Part shown: piece by piece, positions 27,954 to 30,313 of the stretch | Position numbering within the stretch: position 1 is the first letter of the stretch | How the letters are laid out: every line of letters starts with the position of its first letter | Origin: an alpha proteobacterium HIMB59 | Lineage (GTDB): Bacteria > Pseudomonadota > Alphaproteobacteria > HIMB59 | Length of the DNA stretch: 64,000 nt | Direction of reading: 5' to 3' | NCBI GenBank assembly: GCA_004321805.1 | Contig: SGZV01000001.1 | Span: 58,143 to 122,142, forward strand | The notes under the pieces: generated by a model | Told to the model about the DNA's origin: nothing | Databases searched by the model: none | The model's input: the letters and a program-made list of their open reading frames with translations, nothing else | Position numbers and translations under genes: made by a program

Positions 27954-29748
27954 TTATTTTATCTAATATATCCTGAATATTTTTCGAATTTAATCCTTTA
28001 ATTTGAATTAGTTCGTCGCGTGTAGCCTGCTTTAAATTTTGCACATTTCCAAAAAAATTTATTACCCTCATTTTTTTAATTTTCCCAATTCCTGAAATTC
28101 CATCAAGAAAACTTGTTTTAAGTGAATCAGACATTCTTTTCATACTATTTTTTTTTGATAAATTATGTGCTTTATCTCTCATTTTTTGAATAAATCCCTC
28201 AATTTGAGGAACTTCTTTTAAAGAGATATTTCGCTCCTTTGATGTGTGATATCGGTCAAAGCGAAAATCTCTTTTATAACCTTTACTTACTCCAATTAAA
28301 AAAATGTCTTCTTTAACGCCATTTTTTTGAATGATGTCATTACAAATCTTTAAATAAGGAAGACCCCCATCAATTATAATAATGTCAGGAAGGACCTTAT
28401 CATCTTTAGAGAATCTGGCTTCAAAGACTTTTCTCATTAGATCAGCATCCCCAAACTTTTTTAAATCGTAGTCTTTAAATTTGTAAGTCCTTGAGTCCTT
28501 TATACTAAACCCATCCTCATTGAAAACGACATAGGAAGAAACAGCATAATTATTGCCAAAGAAACTATTATCATACGCTTCAATTCTCTCAATAGGATAA
28601 TTAATTTTAAAACGATATTTTAACAATTCTAAAATTTCATTATTATTTTGATATTTTTGTTTTTGTAAAAGGACTTCTTTATCATTTTTCTTAAGAGCTA
28701 ATTTAGAAATTTGCTTCATACCGGGTATCGAGTTTTTTTTTATAATTGTGTCTATTTTATAATTATCATTCATAATTGATTTTAATTCAGAATATCCAAT
28801 TATTTTTTTTGATAATATAATCTTATTAGGCCTAAAACTTTTTAAATAAAATTGAATGATTAAAGATGTAGCATCAATATCATCTTCAACTTTCTCAGAA
28901 TAGTAAATCAAATTACCTCCTAAATATCGACCATAACGAATAAAGCCTATGAAAATAGAAAAGTAATCTTTATCATTAATATGAATGTAATCATAATTTG
29001 CATCTTGATTCCCAATCTTAACTTCTTCTCTTATAATATAATTTAATGACTGAAGACTATCTCTTATTTCTGCTGCTTTTTCATAATTTTCATTTTTGCT
29101 AAAAAAAATCATTTGTTTTTCTAGTTTGTTAAATATTGATTTCTGATTCCCCTGAAAAAACTTGATTGTATCATTTACTTGTTGTTCATAATCTTGTTGA
29201 TTGACATATTGCACACAAGGTGCTGAGCACTGCTTTAAATCAAAAAGCAGGCAAGGTCTTTTTCTATTTTTAAATTCTAAATCAGAACAGCTTCTTAATT
29301 TAAATGACTTTTGCAGTATTTTTATTACCTTATCTGTTTTCAGAGCAGAGGTAAAAGGACCAAAAACGCGATCATCTTGATGAAAATCATTTCTAAATCG
29401 AGTTAATCTTGGGAAATGACCATTTGTGATTTTGATAAGAGGAAATGATTTATCGTCCTTGAGCCGAATATTATATCGAGGCGAAAATTTTTTAATTAAT
29501 AAAGCCTCAAGAAGTAAAGCATTTCTCTCAGACTCGGTTAGCTCAAAGTCAATATTAACAGTTTGAGAGACCATTTTTTGAAGTCTTCTGGGAAGTTTTG
29601 GAAGATTCCCATAATTAGATAGTCTTCTTTTGATATTAATCGCTTTACCAATGTAAATTGGAATATCTTTTTTATTTTTGAAAAGATAGACACCTGATGT
29701 TTTTGGGGCTTCTTTTATTCTATTTTTGAGAATTTCCAAGCCAATCAT
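27946..29748 (-). CDS. uvrC: Excinuclease ABC subunit C
   Basis: GIY-YIG start PKTSGVYLFKNKKDIPIYIGKAINIKRRL, UVR motif, IIIDGGLPYL, C-terminal HhH. Confidence 0.96.
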   Translation of the reverse strand: MIGLEILKNRIKEAPKTSGVYLFKNKKDIPIYIGKAINIKRRLSNYGNLPKLPRRLQKMVSQTVNIDFELTESERNALLLEALLIKKFSPRYNIRLKDDKSFPLIKITNGHFPRLTRFRNDFHQDDRVFGPFTSALKTDKVIKILQKSFKLRSCSDLEFKNRKRPCLLFDLKQCSAPCVQYVNQQDYEQQVNDTIKFFQGNQKSIFNKLEKQMIFFSKNENYEKAAEIRDSLQSLNYIIREEVKIGNQDANYDYIHINDKDYFSIFIGFIRYGRYLGGNLIYYSEKVEDDIDATSLIIQFYLKSFRPNKIILSKKIIGYSELKSIMNDNYKIDTIIKKNSIPGMKQISKLALKKNDKEVLLQKQKYQNNNEILELLKYRFKINYPIERIEAYDNSFFGNNYAVSSYVVFNEDGFSIKDSRTYKFKDYDLKKFGDADLMRKVFEARFSKDDKVLPDIIIIDGGLPYLKICNDIIQKNGVKEDIFLIGVSKGYKRDFRFDRYHTSKERNISLKEVPQIEGFIQKMRDKAHNLSKKNSMKRMSDSLKTSFLDGISGIGKIKKMRVINFFGNVQNLKQATRDELIQIKGLNSKNIQDILDKING

Positions 29749-29870
29749 ATATGTATTTTACAGACATTTTAAGAATCACAAAAAAATTATTTTGTAAATT
29801 ACTTATAAAAATCTAATCGATCAAAAATAACTTTTGTGATAACCTTTACTTAGTCAGATAGTTATTCTCT

Positions 29871-29930
29871 GTAAACGAATACACAGGTAATGGTATTCCC
29901 TGAGACGAATACCTCTATTATAGGAGGTTA
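29871..29930 (+). promoter_or_regulatory. Candidate cis-regulatory RNA leader of the AdoMet decarboxylase gene
   Basis: GAATAC(29877-29882), GGTATTC(29892-29898), GAATACC(29907-29913) can form alternative helices; ACCTC(29911-29915) pairs GAGGT(29924-29928) of the Shine-Dalgarno. Confidence 0.45.
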
Positions 29931-29932
29931 GA

Positions 29933-30313
29933 ATGACTCAAAAACATAATCATTTAATCGTTAGAGCTGATATTGGTTGGTGTCCTAAAGAAGAGGATTT
30001 AAATAAGATCTCTGATTGGATCAGAGCCCTAATTAAAAAAATTGATATGAAATTATTAGCAGGTCCATACACTACTTACGTCAACGAAAAGGGTAATAAA
30101 GGCATGACTTCAGTTGCAATTATTGAAACTAGTCATATAGCATTACATATATGGGATGAAAGTAATCCAGGACTGATGCAATTAGATGTTTATTCTTGTG
30201 CTGATTTTTTACCTAATGATGTTTTTAATCAAGTTAATTTAATGTTTAAAACGATTAAAATGGAGTACAAGTTTCTTGATAGAGAAAAAGAATTAGTAGA
30301 GGTTAATTTGTGA
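29933..30313 (+). CDS. S-adenosylmethionine decarboxylase proenzyme-like
   Basis: IIETSHIALHIWDE resembles the ESH self-cleavage site, LDVYSCADF catalytic Cys region; size 126 aa. Confidence 0.8.
   Translation: MTQKHNHLIVRADIGWCPKEEDLNKISDWIRALIKKIDMKLLAGPYTTYVNEKGNKGMTSVAIIETSHIALHIWDESNPGLMQLDVYSCADFLPNDVFNQVNLMFKTIKMEYKFLDREKELVEVNL

Follow-up and report, generated by a model that had tools for sequence, protein, structure and literature searches.

A leader of two predicted tandem pseudoknots upstream of a SpeD-family decarboxylase gene in HIMB59 alphaproteobacteria, a candidate riboswitch

Introduction

What is the conserved leader in front of a small decarboxylase gene in an alphaproteobacterium of the HIMB59 lineage, and to what might it respond? 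The gene lies in a stretch of 64,000 nucleotides (the window) from a 1.07-Mb draft genome of 28 contigs. An initial annotation of the window proposed a translational switch before an AdoMet decarboxylase gene. It pointed to a direct repeat ACGAATAC (29875-29882 and 29905-29912) on either side of GGTATTC (29892-29898), to ACCTC (29911-29915) as the complement of GAGGT (29924-29928) just before the ATG at 29933, and to a long-range pairing of AATAACT (29826-29832) with AGTTATT (29860-29866). All of these segments do lie at those positions. We have analyzed how far the element is conserved, what structure it could adopt and what the gene encodes.

Results

A conserved element that accompanies the decarboxylase gene

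The gene and its leader are placed as follows.

29933..30313, plus strand: controlled gene, a SpeD-family pyruvoyl decarboxylase (Pfam PF02675)
29855..29941, plus strand: whole conserved leader element, including the Shine-Dalgarno sequence, the start codon and the first codons, ATGACTCAA; 9 copies in 7 genomes, with the consensus CAGATAGYTATTCTCTGNNAAYGAATRNNCAGGTNNNGGTATTCCCTGNNANGARTACCTC

A query of 801 bases around the leader had, apart from itself, a single second match within its genome, at 83% identity over 91 nt and directly 5' of a gene for an EamA-type transporter. Positions 29855 to about 29941 have copies of 83-87% identity in its own genome and in genomes of the same genus, and a search of the family (52 genomes, one genus) added two copies, each preceding an orthologue of the window gene. 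A covariance model was built from these four copies (window, transporter and two from the same genus) and used to search 163 genomes of the order, which extended the element to a second family and brought the total to nine copies in seven genomes, from alphaproteobacteria with small genomes, the element having a length of about 80 nt (29855-29935). A second model, made from the eight distinct sequences, returned the same nine at 101-114 bits. Everything else scored below 24 bits and was judged from its context or score to be chance. Among 387 sampled genomes of the class nothing credible was found, the two weak matches (G462 and G291) likewise looking like chance by context or score, and a DNA search of known phages gave no match. 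Given its recurrence in its own genus and in a second family, with a clean gap in score, the layout of repeat and anti-Shine-Dalgarno segment exceeds what chance would give. One of the seven genomes, G056, holds two copies of leader plus decarboxylase in differing surroundings (C134 and C16), either a true duplication or a mixed assembly.

Conservation begins abruptly at CAGATAG (29855) and is preceded by unrelated A+T-rich DNA; the transcript probably starts near this point. The proposed pairing of AATAACT with AGTTATT does not survive, since one arm lies outside the element and the pair is not conserved. The most conserved part of the leader is its first half, CAGATAGYTATTCTCTG (29855-29871), which had escaped the initial annotation.

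The element travels with the decarboxylase gene. It is present in all eight close orthologues (81-100% identical), and when we looked for it before three more diverged homologues of the same genus (63-67%) we found none. In a tree the proteins whose genes carry the leader group into one supported clade. The genes adjoining leader and decarboxylase mostly differ between copies, and include alanine dehydrogenase (twice), a TauD-like dioxygenase, a flavin monooxygenase-like gene, a histone-deacetylase-family gene and one that we read as RecX-like. The histone-deacetylase-family gene (L024 2222-3079) resembles acetylpolyamine amidohydrolases, which is a further hint of polyamines. Beside one leader copy there is a different EamA transporter gene in divergent orientation (L023 1685-2551). 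We considered it as kin of the leader-carrying EamA gene, and rejected this on a similarity that is only distant (21% identity).

Two predicted tandem pseudoknots and an alternative pairing

From its sequence, the element reads as two tandem H-type pseudoknots, followed by a CCUC:GAGG stem that would mask the Shine-Dalgarno sequence. The predicted parts are these.

29855..29881, plus strand: pseudoknot 1, putative sensor; stem 1 pairs 29855-29858 with 29868-29871 (CAGA:UCUG), loop UAGY
29863-29867 with 29877-29881, plus strand: stem 2 of pseudoknot 1 (UAUUC:GAAUA/G), loop UNAAY
29882..29883, plus strand: linker of two variable bases, all four bases occurring at the second position
29884..29913, plus strand: pseudoknot 2, putative expression platform; stem 1 pairs 29884-29887 with 29899-29902 (CAGG:CCUG)
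29892-29898 with 29907-29913, plus strand: stem 2 of pseudoknot 2 (GGUAUUC:GARUACC), variable loops
29868..29898, plus strand: alternative middle pseudoknot, which excludes both others; UCUG 29868-29871 pairs with CAGG 29884-29887
29877-29882 with 29893-29898, plus strand: second helix of the middle pseudoknot (GAAUAC:GUAUUC)
29911..29915, plus strand: anti-Shine-Dalgarno segment ACCUC, with CCUC invariant
29924..29928, plus strand: Shine-Dalgarno sequence GAGGU, with GAGG invariant and in every copy 5 nt upstream of the start codon

The first 59 nt repeat one plan twice: CAGR, 4 nt, UAUUC (GGUAUUC in unit 2), YCUG, 4-5 nt, and GAAUR (GAAUACC). Each unit would form an H-type pseudoknot with 0 nt between the inner stem strands. 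The predicted structure goes beyond the two competing helices of the initial annotation. When the units are compared, stem 1 ends with A-U in the first and with G-C in the second, which is a compensatory difference.

The structure was proposed from complementarity in the window sequence alone and then checked in the eight distinct sequences. A mechanical search finds both pseudoknots and the overlapping middle one, and none of 20,000 dinucleotide shuffles contained the tandem arrangement. The 20 pairs are retained in each of the eight sequences (100% of 160 cells, compared with 27-51% when the structure is slid); 18 pairs never vary, and the other two vary on one side, to G-U. In pseudoknot 1 the pairs are retained throughout and the loops are nearly invariant too, while in pseudoknot 2 the sole change within pairs is from U-A to U-G and the loops vary. 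Among these eight closely similar sequences no pair has changed in a compensatory way from one genome to another, and sequences so few and so alike do not suffice to prove the helices by covariation. Of the 14 variable columns, 12 fall in predicted loops or the linker and the other two keep G-U pairs (Fisher p = 3e-6, to be taken as a guide, since the test assumes independent columns and one of the sequences had served to find the structure). No other circular shift of the structure matches this placement. A plain fold free of pseudoknots is no more stable than those of shuffles (z = -0.9).

The middle pseudoknot is pairable in all eight sequences with the help of G-U pairs, one form of it being that found mechanically in the window. 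The alternative partners proposed for GGUAUUC are supported. In the second family the pairing of its GUAUUC to the upstream repeat survives only through two G-U pairs, because the upstream ACGAATAC there ends in GT; wobble changes in that family make pseudoknot 1 as well as the middle pairing weaker. Of the competing hairpin suggested earlier, CAGG:CCTG is conserved and the AAT:ATT portion is a variable loop. We discarded the combination of GAAUAC:GUAUUC with CAGG:CCUG as a single pseudoknot, in which a connecting loop of 0 nt would have to cross a 6-bp helix.

At the 3' end, CCUC is retained in all eight distinct sequences and can pair with GAGG in each (mask hairpin -5.5 to -7.4 kcal/mol), in agreement with the earlier view of a cis element that ends at the Shine-Dalgarno sequence. 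As expected of a riboswitch, we find a conserved 5' leader with a putative expression platform on the Shine-Dalgarno sequence, a description supported by the conservation and by the variation in the loops.

The controlled gene

The leader was first supposed to serve a SAM-consuming AdoMet decarboxylase. The protein does match Pfam AdoMet_dc, but falls below the cut-off of the NCBIfam SpeD model (46 vs 76 bits). Its phage matches are pelagiphage SpeD homologues (42-53%), the nearest kin that bear a name. A leader was sought in front of these phage genes too, but there the adjoining genes overlap or abut them. It is about 42% identical to the SpeD homologue of pelagiphage HTVC201P, which decarboxylates arginine and fails to restore spermidine synthesis (PMC9992855). 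A proline is a mark conserved in all bona fide class 1b AdoMet decarboxylases (PMC10407285). We take the proline meant in the figure of that paper to be that of HTWPE in the solved AdoMet decarboxylase 2iii; the window protein has HIWDE at this place, and all nine aligned homologues have WDE.

Spermidine synthase (TIGR00417) was not found in any of 10 genomes searched, all drafts, and was found in 10 of 14 controls; the same 10 genomes gave no homospermidine synthase of the deoxyhypusine-synthase type. With genomes that are 64-99% complete a single absence means little, and ten together mean more. Genes of the arginase/agmatinase family were seen in the second family only. Because the diagnostic proline is missing, the kinship is with pelagiphage SpeD and spermidine synthase was not found, the gene probably encodes a decarboxylase of arginine (or ornithine) and not one of AdoMet. 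The same evidence tells against SAM and decarboxylated SAM as natural ligands, which are poor guesses for a gene that probably does not consume SAM.

A copy of the leader before a transporter gene

The ninth copy, in the genome of the window itself, precedes the EamA transporter gene and not a decarboxylase. Its locus is the following.

L002 1403-1600 (G000:C24, about 28586-28783): tRNA-Asn/EamA locus with the extra segment

Orthologues of this transporter are present in 40 of the 52 genomes of the family, and the proteins of the other genomes align from residue 4 or 5. In all 28 relatives with a readable start the EamA ATG lies a few nucleotides (about 6-10) after the tRNA-Asn; in the window genome about 120 bp separate the same tRNA-Asn from the same ATG. 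The extra segment, seen in this genome only, carries TATAAT, the element, the Shine-Dalgarno sequence and an in-frame 'ATG ACA CAA TCT'. This start agrees with the ATG AC(A/T) CAA at the decarboxylase leaders, so leader and start apparently arrived together. At 83% identity, this copy is not a fresh duplicate of that in the window. Across the genus (L040-L068) the start of the EamA gene only a few nucleotides past the tRNA-Asn leaves no space for a Shine-Dalgarno sequence, which suggests leaderless translation after 3' processing of the tRNA.

Discussion

Most likely the leader is an undescribed class of gene-control RNA. That it acts in cis as RNA on translation of the downstream gene, most likely as a small-molecule riboswitch of undescribed class, is in our judgement moderately probable. 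Conservation, linkage to the gene, the copy on a second gene and pairability are observed, whereas action as RNA, the transcription start, the direction of the switch and the ligand are inferred. In the proposed fold the likely sensor is a compact H-type pseudoknot of the first 27 nt, whose loops are conserved, and the likely expression platform is a second one, with variable loops, in the next 30 nt or so; we assign the roles in this way because loop sequence is nearly invariant in unit 1 and varies in unit 2. The two pseudoknots could coexist, in which case GAAUACC would be held in pseudoknot 2, CCUC could not pair fully and the Shine-Dalgarno sequence would be free. Alternatively the two 3' arms of pseudoknot 1 (UCUG and GAAUAC) could pair with CAGG and GUAUUC, whereby both pseudoknots would be lost, GAAUACCUC released and GAGG masked by CCUC. 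It is plausible that this alternative pairing of the middle segments is an on/off switch. If a ligand binds pseudoknot 1, translation would be turned on. A third state may exist, with pseudoknot 1 formed and the Shine-Dalgarno sequence masked. Sums of stacking energies, which leave out loops and pseudoknot penalties, favor pseudoknot 2 (-7.5 and -11.2 kcal/mol) over the middle pseudoknot (-5.2 and -7.9 kcal/mol, with -4.6 in the second family).

Other explanations can be weighed against a riboswitch. The leader might be a DNA operator just downstream of the promoter, where a transcription factor dimer would bind a pair of inverted repeats, TATTC-N9-GAATR and GGTATTC-N8-GAATACC. The perfect 7-8-7 dyad in the window and the distance of about 30 bp between centers, near three helical turns, are consistent with this, and a regulator site could likewise land before another gene. 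However, conservation in the spacer is one-sided, CCTG being invariant and NNAN variable, which a CAGG:CCTG helix explains and a symmetric dimer site does not; the conserved CAGA, CAGG and CCTC, the last complementary to the Shine-Dalgarno sequence, lie outside the dyads; and the arm GAGTACC of the transporter copy breaks the DNA symmetry while keeping a G-U pair in RNA. We think an operator of this kind unlikely. A translational operator, in which the tandem pseudoknots bind an RNA-binding protein and not a small molecule, is in our estimation a little less probable again. Dimeric proteins can bind tandem simple structures, as suggested for the pan motif (PMC2864571), and the loops of pseudoknot 2 vary; yet neither a decarboxylase nor a transporter offers a candidate for autoregulation, and the conserved loops of unit 1 look like a pocket.

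So narrow a distribution, just seven genomes, is unusual for a riboswitch, and its cassette-like character, together with a mask hairpin of such modest stability, would suit a constitutive leader, a fixed translation signal that moves with its gene and whose Shine-Dalgarno hairpin sets the level or senses temperature. We regard this as improbable, given that unit 1, which lies 5' of the mask, is conserved beyond what a fixed hairpin needs, and that the alternative pairing is retained between families through G-U pairs. A leader-peptide attenuator with a short upstream reading frame has a very slight chance of being correct: an ATG at 29890 in the window opens a frame of 13 codons ending at the Shine-Dalgarno sequence, but the eight leaders have no start codon, frame or length in common, and the transporter copy lacks this one.

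The small-molecule riboswitch, our preferred reading, can be set beside known systems. The segment 29740-30000 has no Rfam match at E values up to 10, and the whole window gives only a tRNA at the gathering score. The sections consulted of the Pelagibacter leader papers, a survey of 104 motifs, two genome-wide surveys and the spermidine riboswitch paper describe nothing alike. SAM-II and SAM-V are also small H-type pseudoknots just 5' of start codons in alphaproteobacteria, and the SAM-V motif was discovered in Pelagibacter, where it is a simple pseudoknot no more than ten nucleotides from the start codon (PMC2704228). The present element differs in having two tandem pseudoknots, in the lack of an Rfam match and in a gene outside methionine metabolism that probably does not use SAM. 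PreQ1-I riboswitches are likewise H-type pseudoknots, about 30 nt long, that act close to the Shine-Dalgarno sequence, whereas here there is no A-rich loop 3 (UNAAY or NNAN instead), no Rfam match and no relation of the gene to queuosine. The spermidine riboswitch, a SAM-I variant, shares polyamine-pathway targets including speD, but has a four-stem SAM-I architecture and acts by transcription termination (PMC10853860), unlike an element of about 80 nt with two pseudoknots and no Rfam match. The Salmonella speF leader also adopts alternative conformations before a polyamine-making decarboxylase (PMC6386406); our element has no conserved leader peptide and no sequence match to it. The STAXI motif has tandem repeated pseudoknots, usually in three copies and near DNA-handling genes (PMC2864571), and again the element has no Rfam match. 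By analogy the element would work like the small pseudoknot riboswitches SAM-II, SAM-V and preQ1-I, while belonging to none of them by the tests made.

It is a candidate new class. From the gene that is controlled, the ligand is likely to be arginine or ornithine, agmatine, or a polyamine. The literature searched offered no validated riboswitch that responds to arginine, agmatine or putrescine. The fullest form of the proposal, a new riboswitch class of two strand-exchanging tandem H-type pseudoknots that senses arginine, ornithine, agmatine or a polyamine and spreads between genes as a cassette with its own start codon, we put forward tentatively, as somewhat short of probable.

If the element does bind a ligand, it would constitute a new riboswitch class of unusual layout, in which a repeated pseudoknot swaps partners to build a switch within about 60 nt. 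As to the controlled gene, the analysis points to a probable decarboxylase of arginine or ornithine. The transporter copy is a natural rewiring, whereby a core gene that starts directly after a tRNA in its relatives has, in one lineage, a complete regulatory leader together with its own start codon.
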